From: Rhodospirillales bacterium BBD 1991-14
GTDB taxonomy: Bacteria > Pseudomonadota > Alphaproteobacteria > Kiloniellales > Kiloniellaceae
Assembly: GCA_001657395.1 (NCBI GenBank)
Contig: LYSY01000004.1
Location: 1-64,000, forward strand
Direction: 5' to 3'
Length of the DNA: 64,000 nt
Every line of letters begins with the position of its first letter. Within the stretch, counting starts at the first letter, position 1. Shown here one piece after another: positions 132 to 28,131 of the stretch. Position numbers and translations under genes: made by a program. The notes beneath the pieces were generated by a model, which worked only from the letters and a program-made list of their open reading frames with translations, searched no databases and was not told where the DNA came from.

Positions 132-224
132 CGCCCGGTGAAGGACAGGGATGGCGGCGGCGGACATCAGAGGTTCGCCGCCACCTCCTTCGATCAGCGT
201 TTTGAAGGGTTACGGGTGCAGGTC

Positions 225-2015: not shown

Positions 2016-2067
2016 AGGCGACCCAGCCGGGGTGGTGCGTTTGTGCCTCGCTGCAGATGGAGCGACG

Positions 2068-3903: not shown

Positions 3904-3967
3904 GAGATCATCGTGGCCTTGCGGTCCGGCGCGGCCCGTTATCGACGGAGACAGGAGGAGCCAGAGC

Positions 3968-5773: not shown

Positions 5774-7614
5774 CGGACCCGGCCGGCGCAACGGCTCTTC
5801 GGCATCCGGGCCTTCCGCTCCTGCTCGCGCTTGCCGTCTGCCTGGGCGCAACCCCTTCAGCCGCCCGCAGCGCCCCGCCCGACTGCTTTCAGCAGCCTGG
5901 CCAACATTGCATCGAGACGCTGCGCAATCTGGTAGAGGCTTCGGTGCGCGAGATCGGAGATGAGGGGCGGAGGCTGCGGGTCCAGGGCCAGGTGGCCATG
6001 GCGTTGGCCGAATTCGGCGATTCCGCCGCTGCGCTCGACGCCGCCGCGGCGATCCCCGATGACGATGAGCGCGCCAAGGCGCTGCGCTTCATCGCCTGGC
6101 AGCAATTGGACAGGCGCGACATCGAAGGGGCCGCGGCGACGGTGCGCCTGATCGCAAACCCGATTCTCCGGGACGACGTACTGCGCTCGATCGCCGGGTC
6201 CCGGGCCCGCTTCGGCAATGTGGGTGCCGCCCTGGCGACCGCAGAGACGATCGGGGCCGACTACACCCGGGACTACGCCTTGGCGGACATCGCCCACGCC
6301 CGGGCCAAGAACGGCGATCTGCAAGGCGCCTTCACGATCGTCAGCGGCATCAAGCGGGCCGGCCTGCGCGCTGCGGTCATCTCAGACCTTGCAGCCCTAC
6401 GCGTAAAGGCCGGCGATGTGGAGGCGGCCCTGGCTGCGGTCAGACGCATTGAAGACGAGGAAGCCAGGGTCGCCGCGCTCGGGCGGGTGGCCGAGCTTGT
6501 GCTGGCGAACGGGGATCGGGACGGGACCCTTGCGATCCTGGCGGAGGCATCCGTGCTCGCTCAGGGTATCGCCGGGACGGAGCAGCGCGATGCCGCGCTG
6601 CTGACGGTCGTCATGGGTAAGACAGCCGCCGGGTTTCCCGTCAGCGCCTTTGCAGATGTCATTCTCATCAGCGACCCGGAGCAGTCCGCGCGCGGCTTCA
6701 TTCACATCGCCGCTGCGCATGCGCGGCTGGGCGAGACCCAGGCCGCCCTCAAGACTTTCGACGTCGTTCTTGAAAGCGCGGGAACCGTTGCCGAGGAGCG
6801 GCAGCGCGATGTGCTCCGGGTTCGTCTGGCCGTCGCCGAGGCGGCGGCGGGCTATGCCGAAAGGGCCGGCAGCACCGCGGCGGGCATCTCCAATCAGGCG
6901 ATCCGCGACAACAGTCTCTACGAAGTGTCGGCGACCCTGGCCAATGCCGGCGATCCTGAAGACGCTGCGATGGCTGCGGCTGCGATCGGCAATGCGGCGA
7001 CGCGGGCCGAGGTCCTTGTTCTGATTGCAAGGTCGGTCGCCAGGGCGGGCGATAGCCAGCGCGCCCGCGTGCTTCTGAACGAGGCCGTCGGCACCGCTCG
7101 GCAGCACCAAGACGAAACGCAGCGTACAGCCGCTCTGCTGCGTGCCACAGAGGCGCAGGTGGCGACGGCGTTTCTGGCAGACGCTTTGATAACCGCACGG
7201 GGAATCGAATCCGGCCGCCACCGGGCGCTGGCGCTGGAGACGGTCGCCAGCCGCCTCTCCGCATCCGGCGACCATGATGGTGCCCGGCGCCTGCTGGCTG
7301 AGGCGCAGGGCGCCGTCTCGGACTTGCCGGACGCCGACGACCGCTTCGATGCCCTGCGCGGCGTTGCGTCCATGCAGGTCCGCGCCGGCTACGCCGACAT
7401 GGCGGCCGCCACCGCGGAAGCCATCTCGGATGACGACCATCAGGCCTTCGCCTTGGGGGCGGTTGCCGCCGTGCAGCTCCGCCGGAGAGATTTCGTCGGC
7501 GCCCGCGCGACGGTCCTGCGGATGCGCGACGCGGCGGCGCGCCGGGAGATGCAGATCCGGGTGGCCCTGGACCTGATGGAACACATTCTGACAGACGCTG
7601 CGCCCGAACAGTGA
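5770..7614 (+). CDS. Exported 33-residue helical-repeat protein, paralogue 4
   Basis: Encodes 614 aa. The ATG overlaps the stop of paralogue 3 by four bases. The signal peptide has the hydrophobic core LPLLLALAVCLGA, then the family C-x7-C pair CFQQPGQHC. Repeats are as in its three neighbours, with three longer punctuating units (AILAEASVLAQ, TFDVVLESAG, VLLNEAVGTARQ). It ends 23 bases before the convergent minus-strand operon. Duplication of one ancestral gene explains the four-gene block; the copies are now clearly diverged rather than recent. Confidence 0.8.
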   Translation: MTDPAGATALRHPGLPLLLALAVCLGATPSAARSAPPDCFQQPGQHCIETLRNLVEASVREIGDEGRRLRVQGQVAMALAEFGDSAAALDAAAAIPDDDERAKALRFIAWQQLDRRDIEGAAATVRLIANPILRDDVLRSIAGSRARFGNVGAALATAETIGADYTRDYALADIAHARAKNGDLQGAFTIVSGIKRAGLRAAVISDLAALRVKAGDVEAALAAVRRIEDEEARVAALGRVAELVLANGDRDGTLAILAEASVLAQGIAGTEQRDAALLTVVMGKTAAGFPVSAFADVILISDPEQSARGFIHIAAAHARLGETQAALKTFDVVLESAGTVAEERQRDVLRVRLAVAEAAAGYAERAGSTAAGISNQAIRDNSLYEVSATLANAGDPEDAAMAAAAIGNAATRAEVLVLIARSVARAGDSQRARVLLNEAVGTARQHQDETQRTAALLRATEAQVATAFLADALITARGIESGRHRALALETVASRLSASGDHDGARRLLAEAQGAVSDLPDADDRFDALRGVASMQVRAGYADMAAATAEAISDDDHQAFALGAVAAVQLRRRDFVGARATVLRMRDAAARREMQIRVALDLMEHILTDAAPEQ

Positions 7615-15669: not shown

Positions 15670-15797
15670 CGCGACCCGGGATCGGGCGGCACAGGCGGCC
15701 GACCGCGCCCGCACGGGCCGCCTCCCGACCGGCTTGACCTCGAACGTCGACCGGGTAGACTGCATTGATCCTTTTCATATTGATAAGAAGCTTAGCA

Positions 15798-17240
15798 GTG
15801 CAGACAGAGCACACGGTTCTCCTTGTCTCCGCGGATGCCGACTTTCTGGATACGGCGACAGAGGCTCTGGGCGCGGACCCGGACTACCGGCTGATCCACT
15901 GCCGCAGCGAACAGGAGGCGGCGGCCCGGCTGAACGAACTGCAGGCGCATCTGATCATCTGCGATGCCGAACTGATCGGCGACGAGTCCGCCAATGTGCT
16001 GGTCAGTGCGCGGATTTCCCATCCTCACGTGGCGCGCCTGCTGTTCGGCTCCACCGACGCGGCGGAGCGCTGCGCCGAGATTGCCCGGCGCGCGGCCAGC
16101 TATCTTTATGTCATGAAGCCGGCGCCGCGCGACCTCATTCGCCTCCTGGCCAAGCGGGCGCTGGAACTCAGCGAGCTGTCCCGCCGCCACCGCGTGCTGT
16201 CGCGCGAACTGAAGATTTCCATGGACGATGACATCTTTGCCCAGCGCGAGGAGTTCTCCGTGAAGGGCGGCTGGTCGCAGTTCGAGAAGCTGGTTTACGT
16301 CAGCGCCAAGATGGCCGAGCTCTGTGCCGAAGCCAAGCAGGCCGCCCAGACCGAACTGCCGGTGCTGATCCAGGGGGAGACCGGAACCGGCAAGGAGCTG
16401 CTGGCCCGGGCCATTCACTTCAATTCCAAGCGCATGAACTCGCCGATGCATGTGCAGAACTGCGGCGGCATGTCCGACGACACCCTGCACTCCGAACTCT
16501 TCGGTCACCTTCGCGGCGCCTTTACCGGCGCTGTCTCGGATCGCCTCGGTCTGTTCCGGGCTGCCGACGGCGGTACGATCTTCCTGGACGAGATTTCCGA
16601 GATCTCGCCGAGCTTCCAGGTCAGCCTGCTGCGCTTTCTTCAGGAGGGAGAGGTGAAGCCGCTGGGCGCCGACCGCCTCTACCATGCCGATGTCCGGGTC
16701 ATCGCCGCCAGCAACCGGCCGCTGGAGAAGCTGGTGGAGAAGGGGGAGTTCCGGCGCGACCTCTATTACCGGCTGAAGGGCTTCGAACTGCACATTCCGG
16801 CGCTGCGCGAACGGCCGGAGGACATCCCGGTGCTCACCGAGTTCTTTGTCGAGAAGTATGCCGGCGTCGTCGGGCGCCGTGTTGTCGGTGTCACCAAGGA
16901 CGTGCTGGCCAAGCTCGAAGCCTACGCCTTTCCCGGCAACGTGCGGGAACTTGAGACCGAGATCCGGCGCATGGTGGCGGTGGCCGAACAGGGCGGCTAC
17001 ATCGCCGCCCGTCATCTCTCGCCGGTGTTCGACCGGGTGACGGTGCGCAGGGACGATGCCTTCGACCTGCCGGCCGACGGCAGCAGCCTGAAGCAGATGG
17101 TCGAGACGCTCGAGAAGCGGGCGGTCACCGCTTCGTTGCAGCGCCATCACTGGAACCAGAGCCGCGCGGCCGACGAACTGGGGCTGTCGCGGGTCGGCCT
17201 CGCCAACAAGATCAAGCGCTACGGTCTGCAGAACGCCTGA
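15798..17240 (+). CDS. hupR: Hydrogenase sigma-54 activator, HupR/HoxA-like NtrC family
   Basis: Encodes 480 aa from GTG 15798. An N-terminal receiver domain (1-125) keeps the phospho-acceptor-like Asp56 (IICDAE) and Lys107 (VMKPAP), but the acidic pocket is degenerate (VLLVSAD). The AAA+ domain has Walker A GETGTGKE, the sigma-54 contact loop GAFTGA, Walker B GGTIFLDE and the FPGNVRELE region. A Fis-type HTH ends the protein (NQSRAADELGLSRVGLANKI). It sits just upstream of hupSL and a sigma-54 promoter, so it almost certainly activates them. HupR is known to work unphosphorylated in Rhodobacter, which would fit the receiver seen here. Confidence 0.85.
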   Translation: MQTEHTVLLVSADADFLDTATEALGADPDYRLIHCRSEQEAAARLNELQAHLIICDAELIGDESANVLVSARISHPHVARLLFGSTDAAERCAEIARRAASYLYVMKPAPRDLIRLLAKRALELSELSRRHRVLSRELKISMDDDIFAQREEFSVKGGWSQFEKLVYVSAKMAELCAEAKQAAQTELPVLIQGETGTGKELLARAIHFNSKRMNSPMHVQNCGGMSDDTLHSELFGHLRGAFTGAVSDRLGLFRAADGGTIFLDEISEISPSFQVSLLRFLQEGEVKPLGADRLYHADVRVIAASNRPLEKLVEKGEFRRDLYYRLKGFELHIPALRERPEDIPVLTEFFVEKYAGVVGRRVVGVTKDVLAKLEAYAFPGNVRELETEIRRMVAVAEQGGYIAARHLSPVFDRVTVRRDDAFDLPADGSSLKQMVETLEKRAVTASLQRHHWNQSRAADELGLSRVGLANKIKRYGLQNA

Positions 17241-17266: not shown

Positions 17267-17485
17267 GTGAGCGAGGAGGATCCACGTGTCGTGCGCTTTC
17301 CCTTCTCCCGCCTGCGCCCCGGCGGGAACGAGCCGGCGAAGGATCTGGGCCTCACGCCGCTGTCGCGGCAGATCGACGGCAGCGGCCGCAGCGCCAAGGG
17401 CCACTGGTGCAGCCGCTGCAAAGGCATCTGGTGGAGCTACTTCCTGGAGTCCGAATGCCCGGTCTGCGGCAACCGCCACGGCTGA
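17267..17485 (+). CDS. Small zinc-ribbon protein, hydrogenase-associated
   Basis: Encodes 72 aa from GTG 17267 with a strong G-rich ribosome site (AAGGGGGG) seven bases upstream. The first 45 residues are basic and look unstructured; the C-terminus is one zinc ribbon, Cys48-x2-Cys51-x12-Cys64-x2-Cys67, ending NRHG. It lies 26 bases after the activator gene and before the hupS promoter. Function is unknown. The spacing resembles the zinc ribbon that HypA normally carries, and the HypA of this locus has lost that ribbon. Confidence 0.7.
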   Translation: MSEEDPRVVRFPFSRLRPGGNEPAKDLGLTPLSRQIDGSGRSAKGHWCSRCKGIWWSYFLESECPVCGNRHG

Positions 17486-17763: not shown

Positions 17764-18726
17764 ATGGCCAATCTGTTGTGGCTCCAGGGCGGGGCCTGTT
17801 CCGGCAATACCATGTCGTTTCTCAACGCCGAGGAACCCAGTGCCTGCGACCTGGTGACCGACTTCGGCATCAACGTTCTCTGGCAGCCCTCGCTGGGTCT
17901 GGAACTCGGCGACGATGTGAAGGCCATCCTGGAGAAGTGCATCTCCGGCGAGATCCAGCTCGACATCTTCGTCTTCGAAGGCACGGTGGTGAACGCCCCG
18001 GACGGCACCGGCGAGTGGAACCGCTTCTGCGGCCGCGCAATGAAGGAATGGGTGAAGGAGCTTTCCGCCGCCGCCCAGTTCGTCGTCGCCATCGGCGACT
18101 GCGCGACCTGGGGCGGTATTCCGGCCACCGCCCCGAACCCTTCCGAAAGCCAGGGCCTGCAGTTCCTCAAACGCGAACACGGCGGCGCCCTCGGGGCCGG
18201 CTTCACCTCCAAGGCCGGCCTGCCGGTCATCAACATCCCCGGCTGCCCGGCCCATCCCGACTGGGTCACGCAAATCCTGGTGGCGGTCGCCACCGGGCGG
18301 GCCGGCGACCTCTCGCTCGACGAGTTCCAGCGGCCCAAGACTTTCTTCTCTAGCTTCACCCAGACCGGCTGCACCCGGAACATGCACTTCGCCTACAAGG
18401 TCTCGGCCACCGCCTTCGGCCAGCGCAAGGGCTGCCTGTTCTATGACCTCGGCTGCCGCGGCCCGATGACCCACAGCCCCTGCAACCGCATTCTCTGGAA
18501 CCGGGTGTCGTCCAAGACCCGGGCGGGCATGCCCTGCCTCGGCTGCACGGAACCGGAGTTCCCCTTCTTCGATCTTGCCCCCGGCACGGTCTTCAAGACC
18601 CAGACGGTCATGGGCGTGCCCAAGGACCTGCCCGCCGGCGTCGACAAGAAGGGCTACGTGAAACTCACTGCCGCAGCGAAGGGCGCCGCCCCGGCCTGGG
18701 CCGAAGAAGACATCTTCGTCGTCTGA
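17764..18726 (+). CDS. hupS: Uptake [NiFe]-hydrogenase small subunit, group 2a
   Basis: Encodes 320 aa and starts directly with ANLLWLQGGACSGN, with no Tat signal, as in cyanobacterial HupS and mycobacterial HucS; the enzyme is therefore cytoplasmic. It carries the iron-sulfur clusters that move electrons away from the active site. Cluster motifs include IGDCATWGG, IPGCPAHPDW, TQTGCTRN, KGCLFYDLGCRG and MPCLGC. The second Cys of the usual N-terminal CxxC is Asn15 (Cys12-Ser-Gly-Asn15), a hallmark of this group. A GGGAGG-like site (cgggaggagaag) precedes the start. First structural gene of the operon. Confidence 0.95.
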   Translation: MANLLWLQGGACSGNTMSFLNAEEPSACDLVTDFGINVLWQPSLGLELGDDVKAILEKCISGEIQLDIFVFEGTVVNAPDGTGEWNRFCGRAMKEWVKELSAAAQFVVAIGDCATWGGIPATAPNPSESQGLQFLKREHGGALGAGFTSKAGLPVINIPGCPAHPDWVTQILVAVATGRAGDLSLDEFQRPKTFFSSFTQTGCTRNMHFAYKVSATAFGQRKGCLFYDLGCRGPMTHSPCNRILWNRVSSKTRAGMPCLGCTEPEFPFFDLAPGTVFKTQTVMGVPKDLPAGVDKKGYVKLTAAAKGAAPAWAEEDIFVV

Positions 18727-18751: not shown

Positions 18752-20350
18752 ATGTCTGCAGCCGTTCAAACCCTGGACATCTCGCCGGTCGGGCGGGTCG
18801 AAGGCGACCTGGATGTCCGTGTCGACATCGAAAACGGCGTCGTCACCAACGCCTGGACCCACGCCGAGCTGTTCCGCGGTTTCGAGGTCATTCTGCGCGA
18901 CAAGGATCCGCAGGCGGGCCTCGTCGTCACGCCGCGCGCCTGTGGCATCTGCGGCGCCTCGCACCTCACCTGTGCCGCCTGGGCGCTCGATACCGCCTGG
19001 GGCACGACGGTGCCGCGCAACGCCATCCTGGCGCGCAACCTCGGCCAGTTGGTCGAATCGCTCCAGTCGCTGCCGCGCCATCACTACGGCCTCTTCATGA
19101 TCGACTTCACCAACAAGAACTATGCCTCAAGCCAGTTCTTCGAAGAGGCGGTGAAACGCTACTCGCCCTTCACCGGAACCTCCTACGAGGCGGGCGTGAC
19201 GATTTCCGGCAGGCCGGTGGAGATCTACGCGCTGATGGGCGGGCAGTGGCCGCATTCCTCCTACATGGTGCCGGGCGGCGTGATGTGTTCGCCGACGCTG
19301 ACCGACGTCACCCGTGCCTGGTCGATCCTGGAGCACTTCCGGCGCAACTGGATCGAGCCGCTGTGGTTCGGCTGCTCCATGGAGCGTTACGAGGAAATCA
19401 GGTCCTACGACGACTTCATGGCCTGGCTGGACGAGCGGCCCGAACATGCCAACTCCGACCTCGGCCTCTACTGGCGCATGGGGATGGAGATCGGCCTGCA
19501 GAACTATGGCAAAGGGCACGGCAAGTTCATCTCCTGGGGCTACCTGCCGCATGAGGACAGGTACCAGAACCCGACCATCGAGGGGCGCAACGGCGCGGTC
19601 ATCATGAAGTCGGGCGTCTACGACGGCGCCAGCGACAGCTTCAAGACGATGGACCAGATCCATGCCCGCGAGGACATGACCCATGCCTGGTACGACGAGA
19701 CGGGCGAGACCCATCCCTTCGACCGGGTGACCAACCCGGTCGGCAAGAACCCGGTTGACCCGGAGGGGAAATACTCCTGGTGCACGGCGGTGCGCCATGC
19801 CGAGAACGGCCGCCTGGAGGCCGGCCCCCTGGCCCGCCAGCTCATCGCCGGCGGCTCCCACGGCGAGGATTGGCAGCACAGTGATCCGCTGATCCTCGAC
19901 ATGTACCGCAAGATGGGCGGTGCCTCGATCCAGCTGCGGCACTTCGCGCGCATGCACGAGCTCTGCAAGCTCTACCGGGAGGCCGAACGCATCCTGCGCG
20001 AGTTCAAGTTGAATGACGAGTGGTACATCAAGCCGACCGAGAAGGACGGCCAGGGCTGGGGCGCCACCGAGGCGATCCGCGGCGCCCTCTGCCACTGGAT
20101 CGACGTGCGCGACGGCAAGATCCGGAACTACCAGATCATCGCCCCGACCACCTGGAACGTCGGACCCCGTGCCTCGGACGGCGAGCGTGGGCCGATCGAG
20201 GAGGCGCTGATCGGCACGCCGATCAAGAGCGCGGCGGATCCGGTGGAAGTCGGCCATGTCTGCCGGTCCTACGACTCCTGCCTAGTCTGCACGGTGCACG
20301 CCCACGATGCCAAAACAGGAGACGAACTGGCACGCTTCCGCACTGCCTAA
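18752..20350 (+). CDS. hupL: Uptake [NiFe]-hydrogenase large subunit, group 2a
   Basis: Encodes 532 aa. It holds the Ni-Fe(CN)2CO site: the L1 motif is RACGICGASH (Cys64, Cys67) and the L2 motif is SYDSCLVCTVH (Cys510, Cys513). The usual DPC of L2 is DSC here. The 16 residues after His516 form a C-terminal extension that the maturation protease should remove after nickel insertion. It starts 25 bases after hupS behind GGGAGGA. Best matched to group 2a enzymes, which oxidise H2 aerobically and in some bacteria down to atmospheric levels. Confidence 0.95.
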   Translation: MSAAVQTLDISPVGRVEGDLDVRVDIENGVVTNAWTHAELFRGFEVILRDKDPQAGLVVTPRACGICGASHLTCAAWALDTAWGTTVPRNAILARNLGQLVESLQSLPRHHYGLFMIDFTNKNYASSQFFEEAVKRYSPFTGTSYEAGVTISGRPVEIYALMGGQWPHSSYMVPGGVMCSPTLTDVTRAWSILEHFRRNWIEPLWFGCSMERYEEIRSYDDFMAWLDERPEHANSDLGLYWRMGMEIGLQNYGKGHGKFISWGYLPHEDRYQNPTIEGRNGAVIMKSGVYDGASDSFKTMDQIHAREDMTHAWYDETGETHPFDRVTNPVGKNPVDPEGKYSWCTAVRHAENGRLEAGPLARQLIAGGSHGEDWQHSDPLILDMYRKMGGASIQLRHFARMHELCKLYREAERILREFKLNDEWYIKPTEKDGQGWGATEAIRGALCHWIDVRDGKIRNYQIIAPTTWNVGPRASDGERGPIEEALIGTPIKSAADPVEVGHVCRSYDSCLVCTVHAHDAKTGDELARFRTA

Positions 20351-20450: not shown

Positions 20451-20837
20451 ATGACGCAGGCTGCCACAAAGGATCAGGAGACCGCCGAACGGGAGGCCTA
20501 TATCGCACGCTACGGCGTCGCGCCGGGCGAAGCCGATCACGCCACCCTGTTGCGGATGATCGAAGACCAGATGAACGAAGGGCTGAAGACCATGGTCGAG
20601 CCCTTCCCGGAGACCGACAAGGAGTTCGCAGCCCTTCTCGACGAGCTGCGGCCGCTGAGCGCCGACCAGTTGCGGGAGAAACTGGTGATCAGCGGCTGGC
20701 TGCTGAAGCCTTACGGCGAAGAGGAAATGCGCTGCCAGGAATGCATGTACTACCTCGTCCACAAGCGCTGGTGCGATCTGCCCGAGCTCAGCCTGCCGGC
20801 CGAGCCCGACTGGTGGTGCCGGCTGTGGCGGATCTGA
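20451..20837 (+). CDS. HiPIP-like four-Cys protein, hydrogenase-associated (copy 1)
   Basis: Encodes 128 aa from ATG 20451 behind GGGGAAGGGG. A helical, charged N-terminal part (1-90) is followed by Cys95-x2-Cys98-x9-Cys108-x14-Cys123. The aromatic-rich context (CQECMYYLVH, then WWCRLWRI) resembles high-potential iron-sulfur proteins (C-x2-C-[FY]...C...GWC-x2-W). There is no signal peptide, unlike ordinary HiPIPs, so it would sit in the cytoplasm beside HupSL. An electron carrier or cluster-binding subunit is inferred; a zinc site or a scaffold role like that of mycobacterial HucM are alternatives. Confidence 0.7.
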   Translation: MTQAATKDQETAEREAYIARYGVAPGEADHATLLRMIEDQMNEGLKTMVEPFPETDKEFAALLDELRPLSADQLREKLVISGWLLKPYGEEEMRCQECMYYLVHKRWCDLPELSLPAEPDWWCRLWRI

Positions 20838-20862
20838 TCCTGGCGTAACGGAGGAGGCCGGG

Positions 20863-21210
20863 ATGAGCGAGACCGCATCCGCGCCGCCGGTCGATGCCGC
20901 CGCCGACGAGCGCCTGCGGGCCGAGATCGCGGCGCGGCTGAAAGCGGGCCTCGAAACCGAAGCCTGGCCGCGGGCCGAGACCTCGGAGATGGTGAACGAG
21001 ATCGTTGCCCGCCTGCAGCACGCCGCGCCGGAGGACCTCGATGCCAAGCTCATCATCGCCGGTGTGACCGACCACACGGTGGAGGCCGACGAGATCGAGC
21101 AGCCCTGCGAGACCTGCATGTACTATCTCGTGCACCGGCGCTTCTGCGAACTGCCGGAACTGATGATCCCGGTGGAGCCGCAGTGGTCCTGCCGGCTCTG
21201 GCGCATATGA
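20863..21210 (+). CDS. HiPIP-like four-Cys protein, hydrogenase-associated (copy 2)
   Basis: Encodes 115 aa behind a strong GGAGGAGG site. The C-terminal 35 residues closely repeat those of the preceding gene: Cys82-x2-Cys85-x9-Cys95-x14-Cys110, with CETCMYYLVH and WSCRLWRI. The N-terminal halves are much less alike, although both are helical and include a short matching element (KLIIAG versus KLVISG). A tandem duplication followed by divergence of the N-terminus explains the pair. No signal peptide. The stop overlaps the hupD start (ATGA). Confidence 0.7.
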   Translation: MSETASAPPVDAAADERLRAEIAARLKAGLETEAWPRAETSEMVNEIVARLQHAAPEDLDAKLIIAGVTDHTVEADEIEQPCETCMYYLVHRRFCELPELMIPVEPQWSCRLWRI

Positions 21211-21713
21211 GCGAGTCGCCGCAAGACCTGCCCGAGAAGGCAGCGCTCGAGCTGGCGGTGATCGGCTGCGGCAATACCAACCGCAGTGACGACGGCGTCG
21301 GCCCCAGGGTGATCGCGCTGTTGCGGGAGGCGGCGCTGCCGCGCGGGGTCGCGGTCCTGGATGCGGGCACCGACGGCATGGGCGTGATGTACAGCGCCCG
21401 GGGTGCCAAGCGGCTGATTATCGTGGACGCGCGGGCGCCGGAGGCCGCGCCTGGTGCGGTCTATGAGGTGCCCGGCGACGCGCTGATGGCGCCGCCGCCG
21501 CAAAGCCTGAACCTGCACGACTTCCGCTGGGATCATGCGCTCTACGCCGGGCGCAGGATCTACGGCGAGGCCTTCCCGTCCGACGTCACGGTCTTCCTGG
21601 TGGAGGCGGAGCGCCTGGACCTGGGTCTGGACCTCAGCCCCGCGGTCGAGGCGGCGGCACGCCGCGTCGCCGGGCAGATCACCCGGCTTGCCGGTGCCCT
21701 AAAGGCGGAGTGA
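21207..21713 (+). CDS. hupD: Hydrogenase maturation endopeptidase
   Basis: Encodes 168 aa. It removes the C-terminal extension of HupL once nickel is in place. The N-terminal signature GCGNTNRSDDGVGPRV is the family's nickel-site region, and DAGTDGMG corresponds to the second ligand-bearing segment; a His follows in NLHDFRWDH. ATG 21207 overlaps the stop of the preceding gene and its own stop overlaps the next start, so it is translationally coupled on both sides. Confidence 0.88.
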   Translation: MSESPQDLPEKAALELAVIGCGNTNRSDDGVGPRVIALLREAALPRGVAVLDAGTDGMGVMYSARGAKRLIIVDARAPEAAPGAVYEVPGDALMAPPPQSLNLHDFRWDHALYAGRRIYGEAFPSDVTVFLVEAERLDLGLDLSPAVEAAARRVAGQITRLAGALKAE

Positions 21714-22039
21714 TGCCGACCATGGCCGCAACCGTCGATGTCCGTGCTGGCACCGTCTACCTCTCGGCTGGGGTCGTCGAGCGTTACTTCCCCGGCATCG
21801 ACGCGGTGATCGTCCTGATCCGCGAGGGCGGGCTGCAGGTCCTGCCGGTCCACCGCATGGCCGCCGGCGGCTGCCTGCTGAAGGTCCGCAATGCCGCCGG
21901 CGACCGGGTCGCCACGGCGCCGGATGTCTTCCACGCCAACGGCCTGGGTGACTGGGCCGCGGAGGGCCTGGCAGCCCGCTGGTCGGCCCGTCACGGCGCC
22001 CTGGTTGTCGACCTGCCGTCGATGGCAACTGCAAACTAA
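21713..22039 (+). CDS. Small hydrogenase-cluster protein of unknown function
   Basis: Encodes 108 aa from ATG 21713 (TGATG overlap with hupD; the GTG at 21710 is an alternative). It appears to be a compact alpha/beta protein rich in short beta segments (AGTVYLSAGVVERYFPG, VIVLIREGGLQVLPV) with no Cys cluster and no signal peptide. The sequence does not tell me its function. Position between the protease and the TPR gene suggests an accessory role in hydrogenase assembly. A regulatory palindrome overlaps its last codons. Confidence 0.6.
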   Translation: MPTMAATVDVRAGTVYLSAGVVERYFPGIDAVIVLIREGGLQVLPVHRMAAGGCLLKVRNAAGDRVATAPDVFHANGLGDWAAEGLAARWSARHGALVVDLPSMATAN

Positions 22040-22089
22040 GTTTGCAAACCAAAAAAGAAGTAGACAGTTTTTTGCAAGGCAGCTTTACT
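22031..22089 (+). promoter_or_regulatory. Palindrome and possible internal promoter upstream of the TPR gene
   Basis: GCAAACTAAGTTTGC at 22031-22045 is a perfect 15-bp palindrome overlapping a stop codon and sharing GCAAA-N5-TTTGC with the site upstream of hupS. Downstream, TAGACA (22061-22066) and TTTACT (22084-22089) with 17-base spacing could be a weak sigma-70 promoter. No sigma-54 element is seen here. A second, co-regulated transcription unit for the accessory genes is inferred. Confidence 0.45.
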
Positions 22090-22157
22090 ATCTGAAAAGA
22101 TGGTTTTGCGGCCTTGACCCGGCTGCGCCATCCGAGAAAACCGGGAGGAAACGGGGC

Positions 22158-23153
22158 ATGACCGCACGCAGCCGCACGGAAGATCAGGTGAAAGCCGCCC
22201 TGCGGGTTGTCGAGGAGGCGGAGGCGACTCCCGAAGAGAAGGCCGAGATGCTCATGGAGGTCGCCATGGGTCTGCAGCAGAAGCCGCAGGCGGCCGAAGA
22301 TCTGGAGGCGGCGCTTCAGCTCTATGCCCTGGCCCTGGACCTCTGTCCGCCCGGGCAGGCCCTGCTGACCGCGCGGATCCGCGCGCGCAGGGGGACGGCG
22401 CTGCTGGCTTTCCCGGCGGAGGGTGCGGAGACCATCGCCGAGGCGCGCGATACTTTCGAAGCGGCGCTCGAGGTCTTGAGGACCGAGGGCGCGGCGGAAG
22501 AGGTGGCCGAGGCGGAGATGAACCTCGGCCTCGCGCTGCAGAACCTGGCGGGCGCACAGATGGCGCGCATCCAGGATGCGATCGGCGCCTATCAGCGCGC
22601 CCTGCGCACCTTCGACCGTCAGCGCTTCCCCAAGGAGTTCGCCATCCTGCAGAACAACCTGGCGACGGCCTTTCTCTCCATTCCCTTCACCGACGAACGC
22701 GGCAAGATGCGCGAGGCCCTGGCCGTTCAGGCCTTTGAAGAGGGCCTTTCGGTCGTCACCCTCATCGACCACCCGTCCGAGTACGCGATGCTGCAGAACA
22801 ACCTCGGCAACGCCCTGCAGTACGTCTCCTCGAGCCACCGCGTCGAGAACGGCCTGCGCGCGCTGGAGGCCTACGACGAGGCTCTGAAGGTCCGTTCCGC
22901 CCGCAATGCGCCGGGCGAATACGCCAACACCATCGCCAACAAGGCCAACTGCCTGGCCAACCTGCCTGATGATCCGGCCGATCCCGCGGCCGGCAATGCG
23001 GACAACTGCGCGGCCGCCGTCGCGCTCTACCGCGAAGCCATGGTCATTTTCCAGAACCTCGGCGAGCGCGAAAAGTCGACGACCCTGCAGCTCGCCATTG
23101 CCGAACTTGCCGGCGAGATGGAACACGAAAGCCTGCGGGCCAACGGCGCCTAG
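22158..23153 (+). CDS. TPR protein, hydrogenase-associated
   Basis: Encodes 331 aa from ATG 22158 after GGGAGGAAACGGGGC. It is made of TPR-type helical hairpins with a repeated NNL motif (AEMNLGLALQNLAG, ILQNNLATAFLSIP, MLQNNLGNALQYVS, ANTIANKANCLANLP). There is no signal peptide or membrane segment, so it is a cytoplasmic adaptor. TPR genes recur in group 1h/2a hydrogenase clusters, where their job is not settled; assembly of the subunits or contact with the membrane partner is inference. Confidence 0.75.
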   Translation: MTARSRTEDQVKAALRVVEEAEATPEEKAEMLMEVAMGLQQKPQAAEDLEAALQLYALALDLCPPGQALLTARIRARRGTALLAFPAEGAETIAEARDTFEAALEVLRTEGAAEEVAEAEMNLGLALQNLAGAQMARIQDAIGAYQRALRTFDRQRFPKEFAILQNNLATAFLSIPFTDERGKMREALAVQAFEEGLSVVTLIDHPSEYAMLQNNLGNALQYVSSSHRVENGLRALEAYDEALKVRSARNAPGEYANTIANKANCLANLPDDPADPAAGNADNCAAAVALYREAMVIFQNLGEREKSTTLQLAIAELAGEMEHESLRANGA

Positions 23154-23219: not shown

Positions 23220-23414
23220 ATGGTCATTGCATTTCTCATCGTTTCGCTGGTCGCCGGCATCGCGGCGGCCATGGCGGCGGGCGCCCTTTCCGGCGTGCGC
23301 ATCGGCGGCGAGGCGATCGGCAACGAACTCGCCGCCTACATGGGCTCGCTCTACGGGTTCCTCTCCGGCTCGGTCGGCGTGCTGCTGGGCCTCATCATTC
23401 TTCTGCTGCTGTGA
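23220..23414 (+). CDS. 64-aa two-span membrane protein, hydrogenase-associated
   Basis: Starts at ATG 23220 (cAAGAGGataagac upstream). Two hydrophobic segments, VIAFLIVSLVAGIAAAMAAG and a C-terminal stretch ending VLLGLIILLLL, are joined by a short Gly/Glu-containing loop. Group 2a hydrogenases lack the cytochrome b anchor of group 1, so this and the next gene are candidates for holding the complex at the membrane or giving access to quinone. That role is inferred from position only. Confidence 0.65.
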   Translation: MVIAFLIVSLVAGIAAAMAAGALSGVRIGGEAIGNELAAYMGSLYGFLSGSVGVLLGLIILLLL

Positions 23415-23424
23415 GGGGGAAACC

Positions 23425-23646
23425 ATGCTGAGCACGGCAATCGACTCCGCGAAGCTTCTCTTCGCCGGCAAGCTGTTCAAGGACAATGCGAAGGTCATGC
23501 GCCAGATCGCCATCGGCGCCGGCAGCGGTGCCGCGGTGGTGGTGGTGGTCGGGCTCTTCGCGCCCATGTGGGTGGCGGCGGTTGCCGGGGGCGCGGTCTC
23601 CGGGGTGCTGCAGCCGATCCTCTTCAAAGACCTGAAGTACGCGTAA
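23425..23646 (+). CDS. 73-aa membrane protein, hydrogenase-associated
   Basis: Starts at ATG 23425 with GAGGGGGA upstream, 10 bases after the previous small membrane gene. An amphipathic, Lys-containing N-terminus (AKLLFAGKLFKDNAKVM) precedes one long or two short membrane spans (GAAVVVVVGLFAPMWVAAVA), and the protein ends in a charged tail (FKDLKYA). No family recognised. Seven bases before the NifU-Rieske gene, so probably part of the same electron-transfer module. Confidence 0.65.
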   Translation: MLSTAIDSAKLLFAGKLFKDNAKVMRQIAIGAGSGAAVVVVVGLFAPMWVAAVAGGAVSGVLQPILFKDLKYA

Positions 23647-23652
23647 GAGGCC

Positions 23653-24531
23653 ATGGCCCGGACCGCCAAACAAAACACTTCGGAAGGCGCCGAGCGCAGC
23701 CTGGAAGCCATGCTGCAGGACATCGCGGCGCTGGAGGCGCTGACCGCGGACTGGCCGGAAGCGCACCGCAATGCCGCCCTGGCGCGGTCGCGCGCCATCG
23801 ACGACCTGAACGCCGAAGCCTTCCGCCGGCTCATCCGCGCCTTGAAGGCGGCCCCCGGCATGGCGCCGGCGCTGCGCGATGCAGCGGCCGACGAGGTCGT
23901 CTATGCCGTGCTGCGGCGTCACGGGATTCTGAAGCCGTCGCTGTTCGAGCGGGTCGACGCCGCCCTCGACACCATCCGCCCGACCCTTGCTGGCCATGGC
24001 GGTGATGTCGAACTGGTTCGGGTCGAGCCGCCCCTGGCCGAAGTGCGTTTCCTCGGCGCCTGCGACGGCTGTCCGGCCTCCATGCTCACCTTCTATGCCG
24101 GGGTGAAGAAAGCCATCCAGGACAACGTGCCGGAGATCGCCGAGGTGAAGCAGGCCAAGGGCCTGGGCGGTGGCGGCGCCGAGGCGGTGCACTTCACCTC
24201 GCCCTTTGCCGCGCAGCAGACCGACGGCTGGCGGGCGGCGGCGGCCCTCGCCGAACTGCCGGACGGCGCGACCAAGGTGGTCGAGATCGCCGGTCATTCC
24301 CTGCTGCTCTCGCGCTTCGGCGACAAGGTGACCTGCTTCGAGAACGCCTGCGCGCATATGGGCATGCCGCTGGACGGCGGCGAGATTGCCGATGGCCTCA
24401 TCACCTGTCCCTATCACGCCTTTCAGTATTCGCTGGAAAGCGGCGAGTGCCTGACGGCGCCGGAAGTGCAGCTTCAGCCGCAGGGCGTGCGGGTGGTCGG
24501 CGAGCGCATCGAAGTCCATCTGGCGGAGTGA
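23653..24531 (+). CDS. NifU-Rieske fusion electron-transfer protein (HucE-like)
   Basis: Encodes 292 aa with three parts: a helical N-terminus (1-90), a NifU C-terminal-like domain (about 95-165) with Cys137-x2-Cys140 in GACDGCPAS, and a Rieske [2Fe-2S] domain with Cys233-x-His235 and Cys252-x2-His255 (CAHMG, CPYHAF). This architecture is known from clusters of high-affinity hydrogenases, where HucE/HhyE are needed for activity and are thought to pass electrons from the enzyme towards the respiratory chain. It is cytoplasmic by sequence and follows two small membrane proteins. Confidence 0.85.
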   Translation: MARTAKQNTSEGAERSLEAMLQDIAALEALTADWPEAHRNAALARSRAIDDLNAEAFRRLIRALKAAPGMAPALRDAAADEVVYAVLRRHGILKPSLFERVDAALDTIRPTLAGHGGDVELVRVEPPLAEVRFLGACDGCPASMLTFYAGVKKAIQDNVPEIAEVKQAKGLGGGGAEAVHFTSPFAAQQTDGWRAAAALAELPDGATKVVEIAGHSLLLSRFGDKVTCFENACAHMGMPLDGGEIADGLITCPYHAFQYSLESGECLTAPEVQLQPQGVRVVGERIEVHLAE

Positions 24532-24535
24532 GGCG

Positions 24536-25714
24536 ATGCGGGTCGCGATCTCCCCCTCTTTCGAGCCGGTGAAGGCACCGGGGAGCGTGACCGCGGGGGC
24601 GCCGCTGCTGGACCCTGCGGGGCCGCGGGTGGTCCTCGGCTGGACCGCCGAGGCTCTGGCGGCGCCGATCGAACCCTCGCCCAGCGTGCTCTTCGGTCCC
24701 CGCGGGGTCTGCCTGCATCCGGACGGCTCGCTCTGGGTCGCCGATACCGGCCATCACCGTCTGCTCGGCTGGCGGCGGGTCCCCAGAGCGGACAACGCGC
24801 CGGCCGACTTCGTGATCGGCCAGCCGGACTTCGGTCGCGAAGGGCGCAACGCCAAGGGCCCCGCCGGCGCCCACACCCTGAACGTGCCCACCGGCCTCTG
24901 CGCCTGGGGAGCCGGCCTGGCGGTCGCCGATGCCTGGAACCATCGCGTGCTCCTGTGGCGGGAGACGCCGCGGGCATCCCATCAGCCCGCCGACATCGTA
25001 CTCGGCCAGGACGGCCCGGCCGGCATGCTGGCCAATCGCGGCGCCGACCTGCCGGACGCCGCCACCCTCCACTGGCCTTACGGCGTGGCGGACCTCGACG
25101 GGCGGCTGTTGGTCGCCGATTCAGGCAACCGACGGGTCCTGATCTGGGAGAACCCGGAGCGCAGCGGCCAGCCGGCCGACCGGGTTCTGGGGCAGCGTGA
25201 CTTCATCACGCGGGACGAAAACGCGGGCGGCCCGGTCGGTGCCATGGGCATGCGCTGGCCCCACGGCATCGCCTTCTGGCAGGGCCACCTTGCGGTTTCC
25301 GATGCCGGCAACAACCGCATCATGCTCTGGGACGGCCTGCCGCCGCGCTCCGCCGCGCCTTGCGGGCGGCTGCTGGGGCAGGCAGACTTCGCCGCCTGTG
25401 ACCACAACATGGGCGCCTATTACCCCGATGCCGCGGCTGTGAACATGCCCTATGCGGTGACCGTGGCCGGCGGTCTGCTGATCGCCGCCGATACCGCGAA
25501 TTCGCGCCTGCTCGGCTGGACCCGGCCGGAGATGACGGCGCCTGCCGAACGCCTGACCGGGCAGCCGGACTTTGCCTCCAAGGGCGACAACGCCTGGGGG
25601 CTGCCGGCTCGCGACACACTCTGCTGGCCCTACGGGCTCTCCGCGCTGGGGCGGCAGGTCGCCGTCGCCGACAGCGGCAACAACCGCGTGCTGCTCTGGG
25701 ACCTGGCGTCATGA
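24536..25714 (+). CDS. Six-bladed NHL-repeat protein, hydrogenase-associated
   Basis: Encodes 392 aa. Six NHL blades can be read, each with a W/N-P-G/A...VAD-x-x-N-x-R-[VLI]-L-x-W core (VADTGHHRLLGW, VADAWNHRVLLW, VADSGNRRVLIW, VSDAGNNRIMLW, AADTANSRLLGW, VADSGNNRVLLW). A GQxDF motif recurs between most blades. It should form a closed beta-propeller. No signal peptide, so it is cytoplasmic. NHL genes recur in group 1h/2a loci; a docking role in maturation or electron transfer is inference. Its stop overlaps the hypF start. Confidence 0.82.
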   Translation: MRVAISPSFEPVKAPGSVTAGAPLLDPAGPRVVLGWTAEALAAPIEPSPSVLFGPRGVCLHPDGSLWVADTGHHRLLGWRRVPRADNAPADFVIGQPDFGREGRNAKGPAGAHTLNVPTGLCAWGAGLAVADAWNHRVLLWRETPRASHQPADIVLGQDGPAGMLANRGADLPDAATLHWPYGVADLDGRLLVADSGNRRVLIWENPERSGQPADRVLGQRDFITRDENAGGPVGAMGMRWPHGIAFWQGHLAVSDAGNNRIMLWDGLPPRSAAPCGRLLGQADFAACDHNMGAYYPDAAAVNMPYAVTVAGGLLIAADTANSRLLGWTRPEMTAPAERLTGQPDFASKGDNAWGLPARDTLCWPYGLSALGRQVAVADSGNNRVLLWDLAS

Positions 25715-28131
25715 AGGGCGAAGCCATCACGGTGCGCGGCCAGGTCCAGGGCGTCGGCTTCCGCCCGACGGTCTGGCGCATCGCCACCGAGCTGGGCCTG
25801 ACCGGCGATGTCCGCAACACGGGCGAGGGCGTGGAGATCCGCCTCTGGGGTGCGGCGCTCGACCGCTTCGCCGAGCGGCTGCGCGCGGAGGCGCCGGCCC
25901 TGGCGCGCATCGACGGCCTGGAGCGCCGGCCGCTGGATGTGCCGGTCGACGTTCCGGCGCCCGAGGCGTTCCGGATCGCCGCCTCCTCAGCCGGGGTGAT
26001 GCGCGCTGCCGTCACACCCGATGCGGCAACCTGCCCGGACTGTCTGGCGGAGATGCGCGACCCCTTTGACCGGCGCTACCGCTACCCTTTTGCCAACTGC
26101 ACCAACTGCGGGCCGCGTTTTTCCATCGTCGAGGGCGCGCCCTACGACCGCGACAAGACCACCATGGCCGCCTTCGCGCTCTGCCCGGACTGCCGCGGCG
26201 AGTACGAAGATCCGGCGGACCGGCGCTTCCATGCCCAGCCCGTGGCCTGTCACCGCTGCGGTCCCCGTGCCTGGATCGAGCACCTCGGCGGCGGTGCCGT
26301 GAACCACGAAGCCTTTTCCATGCTCGACGACGTCGATGCCGCCGGCGGCATGCTGATGATGGGCCACATCGTCGCGGTGAAGGGCATCGGCGGCTTCCAC
26401 CTGGCCTGCGATGCCACAAAGGACGCGGTGGTCGCGCGTCTCAGGGCGCGCAAGCGCCGCCGCGGCAAGGCCTTCGCGCTGATGGCCCGCGATGTCGAGG
26501 TCATCCGCCGCTACTGCACGGTTACGGAGGCCGAGGAGGCGCTGCTGAACAGCCCTGCGGCGCCCATCGTGCTGCTGAAAACGACGGGCGAAGCGCTGCC
26601 GGAGGCCGTGGCCCCGGGCCTCGACCGGGTCGGCTTCATGCTGCCCTACACGCCGCTGCATCACCTGCTGTTGCGCCGCATGACGCGCCCGGTGGTGATG
26701 ACCAGCGGCAACCTCTCCGGCCGCCCGCAATGCACGGAGAACGATGCGGCGCGGGCAGAGCTGGCGGCGGTGGCCGACTTCGCCCTGATGCACGACCGGG
26801 GGATCGCCAACCGCATCGACGATTCGGTCGTCCGCCTCGACCTCGGCCGTCCGCGCCTGCTGCGCCGCGCCCGCGGCTATGCGCCGGCGCCCATCGCCCT
26901 GCCGGAAGGCTTCGACCGCGACCGGCAGGTGCTGGCACTGGGCGGGGAGCTGAAGAACACCTTCTGTCTGGTGAAGGACGGCCAGGCGGTCCTCAGCCAG
27001 CACATGGGCGACCTGGAGGACGCCGCGACCGCCGCGGACGTCAGCCACAACCTGCGTCTTTACGAAGAGCTCTTCGAACCGGCGGCGGAGGCGATCGCCG
27101 TCGACTGTCACCCGGACTATCTCTCGACCAAACGCGGTCAGGCGTTGGCGGAGGAGAGGGGGCTGCCGCTGGTCGAGGTGCAGCACCATCACGCCCACAT
27201 CGCCGCCTGCCTGGCCGAAAACGGCTGGCCGCTGGAAGGCGGGCCGGTTCTCGGCATCGCCATGGACGGCCTTGGCTACGGCGCCGACGGGACGGTCTGG
27301 GGCGGCGAGTTCCTGGCCTGCGACTATCGCGGCTACGAGCGCCTCGGTTTCCTGAAGCCGGTCGCCCTGCCGGGCGGCAGCGCCGCGGTGCGCGAGCCCT
27401 GGCGCAATGCCTACGCCCACCTGATGGCGGAGATGGGCTGGGCCGAGTTCGCCATGAACTTCGCCCGGCTTGATCTCCATCAACGGCTGGAGGCCGCCCC
27501 CCGTGCGACCCTCGATGCCATGATCGCCAAGGGTCTGAACGCACCTCTGTCGTCCTCCTGCGGGCGGCTCTTCGACGCCGCCGCGGCGCTCTGCGGCTTG
27601 GCCTGGGAGGCCCAGGCCTATGAGGGCGAGGCGGCGATGCGCTTCGAGGCGGCCATCGATCCGGCGGCGCTGGAGGAGGCGGAGGATCTCGCCTATCCCT
27701 TCGCGATCCCGTTGCTCGGCGGCAAGGGCAGGCCCTACATCGAGCCTCTCGCCGTGTGGCGGGCGCTGCTGGGCGACCTGCATTTGAACACACCGGTCGG
27801 GGTGATCGCGGCGCGCTTTCATCGCGGCCTCGCCAGGGCCATCGTCGCCATGGCCGCGCGGCTGTCTGGTGGTTTGGCGGGAGACGCGAACCGTTTTTCC
27901 GCCGTCGCGCTGAGCGGCGGCTGTTTCCAGAATGCCACGCTTTTCAAACTGGTCCACGAGGGGCTGGAGCAGCGAGGCTTCACCGTGCTCAGTCATGAAA
28001 AGGTGCCGGCCAACGACGGCGGCCTGGCGCTCGGCCAGGCGGTCGTGGCGCTGGCCCAAAAGCAAGGCGATCCGCGCCACGAACCAGGAGAGAGACCAGG
28101 AGAGAGACATGTGTTTGGGGATCCCCGGTAG
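25711..28131 (+). CDS. hypF: Carbamoyltransferase HypF
   Basis: Encodes 806 aa, full length. Domains in order: acylphosphatase-like (about 5-90, GQVQGVGFRPTVWR), two zinc fingers (about 105-190, with CPDC, CTNCGPRFS, CPDCRGEY, CHRCGP), YrdC-like (about 200-385) and a Kae1-like metal/ATP domain with the HHHAHIAAC motif. It turns carbamoyl phosphate into the carbamoyl-adenylate used by HypE to make the cyanide ligands. ATGA overlap with the NHL gene; its end overlaps hypC by 23 bases. Confidence 0.95.
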   Translation: MKGEAITVRGQVQGVGFRPTVWRIATELGLTGDVRNTGEGVEIRLWGAALDRFAERLRAEAPALARIDGLERRPLDVPVDVPAPEAFRIAASSAGVMRAAVTPDAATCPDCLAEMRDPFDRRYRYPFANCTNCGPRFSIVEGAPYDRDKTTMAAFALCPDCRGEYEDPADRRFHAQPVACHRCGPRAWIEHLGGGAVNHEAFSMLDDVDAAGGMLMMGHIVAVKGIGGFHLACDATKDAVVARLRARKRRRGKAFALMARDVEVIRRYCTVTEAEEALLNSPAAPIVLLKTTGEALPEAVAPGLDRVGFMLPYTPLHHLLLRRMTRPVVMTSGNLSGRPQCTENDAARAELAAVADFALMHDRGIANRIDDSVVRLDLGRPRLLRRARGYAPAPIALPEGFDRDRQVLALGGELKNTFCLVKDGQAVLSQHMGDLEDAATAADVSHNLRLYEELFEPAAEAIAVDCHPDYLSTKRGQALAEERGLPLVEVQHHHAHIAACLAENGWPLEGGPVLGIAMDGLGYGADGTVWGGEFLACDYRGYERLGFLKPVALPGGSAAVREPWRNAYAHLMAEMGWAEFAMNFARLDLHQRLEAAPRATLDAMIAKGLNAPLSSSCGRLFDAAAALCGLAWEAQAYEGEAAMRFEAAIDPAALEEAEDLAYPFAIPLLGGKGRPYIEPLAVWRALLGDLHLNTPVGVIAARFHRGLARAIVAMAARLSGGLAGDANRFSAVALSGGCFQNATLFKLVHEGLEQRGFTVLSHEKVPANDGGLALGQAVVALAQKQGDPRHEPGERPGERHVFGDPR

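Follow-up and report, generated by a model that had tools for sequence, protein, structure and literature searches.

Directly after the structural genes of an oxygen-tolerant group 2a [NiFe]-hydrogenase, the window (the whole stretch of DNA that was analysed, 64,000 nucleotides) encodes two small paralogous proteins, ORF1 and ORF2, that form a conserved pair. This pair was restricted to group 2a genomes in the sets that were searched, no HucM was found near it, and the small subunit HupS that accompanies it has Proteobacteria-specific changes around its exit site. We tentatively favour the reading that ORF1 and ORF2 would be metal-binding, likely [4Fe-4S], cytosolic partners docking on the exit face of HupS in place of HucM, where the cluster type, the docking site and the function are what we infer.

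Group 2a hydrogenases carry out trace-hydrogen uptake in many aerobes. Structural work has shown how electrons reach quinone in the mycobacterial form, which has HucM. Should the pair serve this purpose in the proteobacterial form, one enzyme core would be equipped with two unrelated coupling devices, and the pair may replace the part that links the hydrogenase to the membrane in some other bacteria. Cytosolic HiPIP-like proteins would, if this is true, also put that site to a new use. Work on the acceptor, a role so far proposed for HucE and for a putative HiPIP, gains from the pair a short gene list that can be tested.

A conserved pair of four-cysteine proteins after hupL

The two proteins lie between hupL and the gene of a HycI-type protease, with the ORF2 stop overlapping the protease start (ATGA; Table 1), and are 40% identical across 94 aa (BLASTP E 1e-23). 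Both carry C-x2-C-x9-C-x14-C (C95/C98/C108/C123 in ORF1, C82/C85/C95/C110 in ORF2), read from both translations exactly as an earlier note on this DNA had described it, and both finish in CRLWRI with no residue beyond the Ile. No Pfam, NCBIfam or PHROG model matched either protein above its cut-off. The note had also stated that neither protein has a signal peptide, and none is visible among 79 ORF1 and 80 ORF2 homologues, with export judged from hydropathy and the RR motif only: the highest 19-residue hydropathy mean is 1.03 for ORF1 and 1.14 for ORF2, and a Tat-like RRxF[LIV] occurs in none of them within the first 40 residues.

Table 1. Coordinates of the hydrogenase operon and its flanking genes in the window
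Feature	Position	Strand	Remarks
Sigma-54 activator	15765-17240		
72-aa CxxC-CxxC protein	17267-17485		between sigma-54 activator and hupS
hupS/hucS, group 2a small subunit	17764..18726	+	K212, Y227, Y298 kept; N206-M207-H208 after Cys203
hupL/hucL, group 2a [NiFe]-hydrogenase large subunit	18752..20350	+	best PDB match HucL
ORF1	20451..20837	+	128 aa; acidic N-terminal part (helical look) and four-Cys HiPIP-like tail
ORF1 C-terminal module, C95 to I128	20733..20834	+	C-x2-C-x9-C-x14-CRLWRI
ORF2	20863..21210	+	115 aa; ORF1 paralogue
ORF2 C-terminal module, C82 to I115	21106..21207	+	four Cys, CRLWRI end
Hydrogenase maturation protease, HycI/HupD type	21207..21713	+	
109-aa protein, no known family	21710..22039	+	in 80/80 loci (best 80 of 158)
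TPR-like protein	22089..23153	+	Pfam TPR match sub-threshold; position of Nostoc alr0691
64-aa membrane protein	23220..23414	+	sub-threshold NCBIfam asr0689 family match, E 1e-5
73-aa membrane protein	23425..23646	+	position of Nostoc asr0690
hucE, NifU domain and Rieske domain	23653..24531	+	
NHL-repeat protein	24536..25714	+	
hypF-like carbamoyltransferase gene	25711..28131	+	from sequence, and hypF annotated at the same place in Sphingopyxis

A search of the PDB with ORF1 gave no match below E 0.08. In a single-sequence search, residues 36-66 of ORF2 matched 5h7c, a designed helical repeat, with an E of 5e-8 summed over many weak repeats; no single repeat was significant, and we discounted this match as chance or helix likeness. 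The designed helical proteins, kinesin and Egl-nine fragments returned by profile searches of the PDB were read in the same way. DUF2284 was also set aside as a family for ORF2, being matched weakly by 7 of 63 rows, at best with 20.5 bits against a cut-off of 25 (L093, residues 25-90).

A profile built from seven sequences had 158 confirmed matches in the species-genome collection, and the best 80 of these loci were analysed (70 from Alphaproteobacteria, 7 from Gammaproteobacteria, 1 from Mariprofundia and 2 unplaced). Among these best 80 of 158 loci, ORF2 was found in 80, ORF1 in 79 and hupL in 78, and the pair stands directly after hupL in all 78 that have it; together with the coordinates in the window, this agrees with the placement after hupL and before the protease that had been noted earlier. 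The order hupS-hupL-ORF1-ORF2-protease-109-aa gene is constant through the 80 loci, and the absences (hupS in 4, hupL in 2, and ORF1 in L025, which starts inside the operon) always fall at a contig end.

All 78 usable ORF1 tails keep the four cysteines with their exact spacing, as do 77 of the 78 usable ORF2 tails, counts that omit the rows with ambiguous bases (both proteins of L060 and ORF2 of L052). Also invariant are R-C-x-E-C, Y, L, H, W-C-D, P-E, P, W, C-R-L-W and the final I in the 78 usable ORF1 tails, and C-E, M-Y, C, L-P-E, W-S-C and L-W-R-I in all 78 ORF2 tails. The exception among the cysteines is L064 (9995-10303, a Roseicyclus MAG), where the second motif Cys of ORF2 is replaced by Arg, through an assembly error or as a natural variant. 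The ORF2 alignment A2 (63 rows) excludes L064 along with near-identical rows, and its invariant columns overstate the second motif Cys because L064 is left out.

In a tree of 107 rows (47 ORF1, 60 ORF2), the ORF1 and ORF2 sequences fall on opposite sides of a branch supported at 100/100, and the duplication therefore predates the spread of these operons. Judged by this tree, ORF1 and ORF2 are an ancient duplicated pair of which both copies have been retained.

The pair accompanies group 2a hydrogenases

Three draws of genomes were each searched with HupL and with ORF2 or an ORF2 profile, genomes being matched as far as they were listed. HupL was present in 4 of the 385 genomes of the class draw (82-100% identity), and the same 4 hold both ORFs with no match elsewhere; it was present in 4 of the 378 genomes of the phylum draw (81-100% identity), again the same that hold both ORFs, and in 6 of the 143 genomes of the relatives draw (91-100% identity), the same 6 having two strong ORF matches each. 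Over the three draws, both copies occur in 12 of the 12 distinct genomes that encode a close group 2a large subunit; the pair occurs in none of the 30 distinct genomes having only other [NiFe]-hydrogenases, which were counted at E 1e-60 or better and are 34-43% identical. The earlier note had asked whether the homologues track group 2a hupL, and by these counts they do; in the searched genomes they are not found mostly away from hydrogenase loci. Single weak matches in three further genomes of the relatives draw, G046, G050 and G125 (E 0.004-0.008), all without a group 2a hupL, were set aside.

HupS keeps its quinone contacts and changes near the exit site

The closest solved relative of HupL is HucL of mycobacterial Huc (7uus/7utd, E 9e-186) and that of HupS is HucS of the same enzyme (E 1.5e-154), and it is by these closest solved relatives that the hydrogenase is assigned here to group 2a. 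In HucS, menaquinone is contacted by Lys212, Tyr229 and Tyr301 (PMC10017518; this and the other papers are cited from excerpts of their text). Mapped by alignment, with the chain counted by hand, these contacts correspond to K212, Y227 and Y298 of the window HupS. They are conserved in 75/75, 75/75 and 74/75 (one gap) proteobacterial HupS sequences, a set made of the window and 74 of the 76 loci with a hupS match (those with fewer than 200 aligned residues being excluded), and all three are kept in five HupS sequences of other phyla. HupS may therefore itself still reduce quinone, in which case an extra electron carrier is not required, and HupS probably retains a quinone site. The proposal in the earlier note that a pair of high-potential carriers would suit a hydrogenase passing electrons towards quinone thus has these kept contacts counting against it in its simple form.

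Residues of HupS that are fixed in Proteobacteria only gather in the C-terminal part of the protein, accounting for 15 of the 107 conserved columns at positions 188-320 and for 3 of the 118 at 1-187 (Fisher p 0.002, with five outgroup sequences and with the cut at 188 picked after the list was seen). Plain identity to the Mycobacterium HupS is similar in both parts (71% and 68%). Among these Proteobacteria-specific residues are N206-M207-H208, right after Cys203, and K300-L301-T302, right after Y298. By standard hydrogenase numbering, we take Cys203 to be a ligand of the distal cluster. Such changes near the exit site would be expected were the exit face occupied by another partner.

HucM was not found near the proteobacterial pair

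For comparison with other phyla we used five group 2a loci, on plasmids, from Runella and Hymenobacter (Bacteroidota), Thermus, Mycobacterium intracellulare and Sulfobacillus. Searched in six frames over about 9 kb on either side of hupL, these five loci gave no homologue of ORF1 or ORF2 above noise. HucM or DUF1641 proteins lie near hupS in three of them: the Mycobacterium gene immediately before hupS encodes a protein that matches the HucM chain of Huc (PDB 7uus, E 3e-34), and Thermus and Sulfobacillus have DUF1641 (PF07849) proteins near hupS. A HucM profile run over the available DNA of the 80 proteobacterial loci gave no HucM-sized match, the best one (E 0.005) being a 60-residue stretch within a large protein on the opposite strand, upstream of the regulator. 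Candidates in L022, L040, L045, L046 and L095 (E 0.005-0.23) were rejected; four are partial matches inside an opposite-strand protein of more than 400 aa upstream of the regulator, and the fifth falls in the beginning of the TPR frame. DUF1641 occurs in 1 of the 12 pair-bearing genomes, on another contig. A strict alternation of HucM and the pair is rejected, because at the two Bacteroidota loci both are missing within about 9 kb of hupL.

The HucM of Huc assembles the oligomer and forms a tube that has been proposed to carry menaquinone to HucS (PMC10017518). DUF1641 is likewise part of the huc operon of Parageobacillus (PMC12976888), and HysM, a HucM-like protein, belongs to an archaeal group 2e enzyme (PMC11018855). 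ORF1 and ORF2 resemble HucM in being small accessory proteins encoded beside group 2a hupSL, and HucM acts at the quinone side of HucS (PMC10017518). Unlike them, HucM forms a coiled-coil tube and was not found near the proteobacterial loci. As homologues of HucM, ORF1 and ORF2 were rejected: hhalign gave 3% and 0.7%, and HucM chains were not among the PDB profile matches.

The tails resemble high-potential iron-sulfur proteins

The earlier note had compared the layout of both proteins with that of HiPIPs. As a reference we used nine HiPIP sequences, namely genes from 3 of 142 genomes of the class and six HiPIPs of the PDB; no HiPIP gene was found in the window's own genome. ORF1 and ORF2 have the cysteine order and the aromatic surroundings of PF01355. 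Like short HiPIPs such as PioC (PDB 6xyv), they have C-x2-C followed by aromatics and a single third Cys, and in ORF1 an aromatic stands right before the last Cys (WWC against GWC), followed by x-[LA]-[WY]. The last Cys lies in WWCRLW in ORF1 and in WSCRLW in ORF2, and short HiPIPs, spaced C-x2-C-x8-C-x12-C, end in GWCRLY, GWCKLY or GWCELW; the Gly of G-[WY]-C is Trp in both window proteins, and ORF2 has Ser before its last Cys.

A profile of the nine HiPIPs, run unfiltered over 20,668 frames from the window and the 80 loci, placed ORF1 in all of the top 20 and in 72 of the top 80 positions and ORF2 in 3 of the top 80, which is to be taken as a ranking and not as a probability because the frames come from homologous loci and make a poor null. 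With the same profile, ORF1 tails from 11 loci reached 10.8-22.1 bits, compared with means near 0 for shuffles with the cysteines fixed, and the real score was reached by 0 of 500 such shuffles in 10 loci and by 2 of 500 in one. ORF2 tails from the same 11 loci scored 6.5-12.2 bits and were equalled by 0-8 of 500 Cys-fixed shuffles. A profile of three short HiPIPs separates poorly, being reached by 0-26 of 500 shuffles for ORF1 and by 8-201 of 500 for ORF2. Against the HiPIP profile, hhalign gave 64% for ORF1, 81% for the ORF1 tail alone and 29% for ORF2.

Pfam HIPIP (PF01355) was matched above cut-off by neither of the two window proteins. It was reached by 4 of 56 ORF1 rows, all sub-threshold (best E 0.085), and was narrowly the commonest family among them, the next two having 3 of 56 each. 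In the scan of 63 ORF2 rows HIPIP was not among the families listed (25 of 27), and an FmdE zinc finger appeared weakly in one row. No HiPIP came up, at any E up to 10, when the PDB was searched with profiles of ORF1, of ORF2 or of the ORF1 tail. Further differences from HiPIPs are the extra N-terminal part, the x9/x14 spacing against x8/x12, the lack of a visible export signal, the exact stop at CRLWRI, the tie to one hydrogenase and family scores that are all sub-threshold. We thus read the likeness of ORF1 to HiPIPs as real, by distant kinship or by convergence, and as insufficient for family membership; in ORF2 the likeness is weaker by the same scores. Of the earlier comparison, what stands is a resemblance of the ORF1 tail above chance (profile ranking, shuffles and hhalign), with all scores below threshold, less of it in ORF2 and no PDB match to a HiPIP.

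Published work on related systems

A HiPIP beside a group 2a hydrogenase is, in outline, an idea already published: in Acidithiobacillus ferrooxidans a putative HiPIP, DN052_04130, beside hupLS was proposed in 2020, and it is induced together with DN052_04125, a gene of no known function (PMC7735108). Like DN052_04130, ORF1 and ORF2 are small putative Fe-S proteins adjoining group 2a structural genes, a link made by position and annotation only, with no sequence comparison. The account of DN052_04130 in section 10 of that paper describes no pair, family or relation to HucM, and a search of open papers, as far as their excerpts go, found no description of the paired family or of its relation to HucM. 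What is new here is that HucM was not found near the pair, and that the Proteobacteria-only HupS residues gather in its C-terminal part, some of them beside the quinone site. A paper on the endo-hydrogenase of A. caulinodans (PMC2650096) was rejected as a precedent, as it concerns a group 4 enzyme.

HucE is needed for H2 use in M. smegmatis (PMC6883350), and a survey of group 2a operons names hucE and NHL genes (PMC7784904); both genes of this operon type, HucE with its NifU and Rieske domains and the NHL protein, are present near hupSL in the window. The window also resembles the extended hyp operon asr0689-alr0693 of Nostoc (PMC2408588), in which genes of the same kinds (TPR, two small membrane proteins, NifU-like and NHL) stand ahead of hypF. 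Unlike in Nostoc, the TPR gene comes first in the window, and ORF1 and ORF2 are not among the five Nostoc ORFs described there.

Possible roles of ORF1 and ORF2

We hypothesise that the N-terminal part of ORF1 and ORF2, probably helical, would bind protein, and that the four tail cysteines would hold a metal centre, most likely [4Fe-4S] in a HiPIP-like setting. The pair could then dock where electrons leave HupS, on a face close to the distal cluster and the quinone site, and perform in Proteobacteria the coupling job of the unrelated HucM in mycobacterial Huc. Coupling may proceed by electron relay, or by shaping a route of quinone access beside the small membrane proteins of the operon, which possibly provide a membrane contact for a hydrogenase without HucM nearby. 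A bolder version, which we regard as rather improbable, is that the HucM quinone tube has been replaced by duplicated cytosolic HiPIP-like [4Fe-4S] subunits on HupS, which with the small membrane proteins would make a second, unrelated quinone coupling of the same core.

On the other hand, the pair could consist of maturation factors that build or check HupS (Fe-S insertion, oxygen shielding) or assemble HupSL, and then leave the enzyme. The genes directly precede the protease and are clustered with NifU-Rieske and other accessory genes, and the matching neighbour genes of Nostoc were proposed to serve small-subunit maturation (PMC2408588). Moreover, the A. ferrooxidans enzyme is described as having two subunits only (PMC7735108, on Fischer 1996), which speaks against tightly bound additional subunits should the pair occur in that species. 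However, none of the five loci from other phyla has the pair, although a small subunit of the same kind is presumably made there, and the tail resembles an electron-transfer cluster site more than a known chaperone; we consider maturation not very likely.

The tail could instead be a zinc module, and the pair a redox-inactive scaffold that stands in for HucM by arranging HupSL oligomers or membrane contact and does nothing else. The four invariant cysteines would also suit zinc, with a His near them in 78 of 78 ORF1 and 73 of 78 ORF2 tails. The quinone contacts kept in HupS, which may reduce quinone itself, also speak for this reading, and HucM, not found here, is a non-redox scaffold (PMC10017518). 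Against this, the commonest weak Pfam match of the ORF1 rows is HIPIP and no zinc-finger family, the ORF2 scan being of no help, and we hold a zinc scaffold to be unlikely.

That ORF1 and ORF2 are true soluble HiPIPs, free cytosolic high-potential carriers from HupS to quinone or another acceptor as suggested for DN052_04130 (PMC7735108), agrees with that proposal and with the PioC-like tail (GWCRLY against WWCRLW), but appears very unlikely for two diverged copies that are strictly linked to one hydrogenase, extend some 80-95 residues ahead of the first Cys and so look like dedicated partners, and that lack the Tat-like signals which the three genome-derived reference HiPIPs carry. The docking reading, in which the pair would be bound to HupS, is the one that we retain. 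For completeness on export, the PDB HiPIPs of the reference set are presumably exported proteins.

Other genes of the operon and of the window

Several smaller observations concern the neighbouring genes. The 72-aa protein has a GHWCxxCxxxW...CPxC tail with the look of a zinc ribbon or a rubredoxin, and no Pfam match above cut-off; it occurs in 72 of the 80 loci (best 80 of 158), with CxxC..CxxC in 71 of these 72. The gene of the 64-aa membrane protein is found in 60 of the same 80 loci. In four of the five other-phylum loci the place of the 109-aa gene is held by small unnamed genes, a likeness of position. In L069, L072, L075 and L086 (gamma/zeta-type), the TPR-hucE-NHL block is on the other strand, and ORF1-ORF2 remain with hupSL and the protease. 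At 138-7614, away from the hydrogenase genes, four long successive frames encode, as judged by eye, similar repeat-rich proteins of about 600-720 aa that have a pair of cysteines close to the mature N-terminus and look like tandem paralogues.
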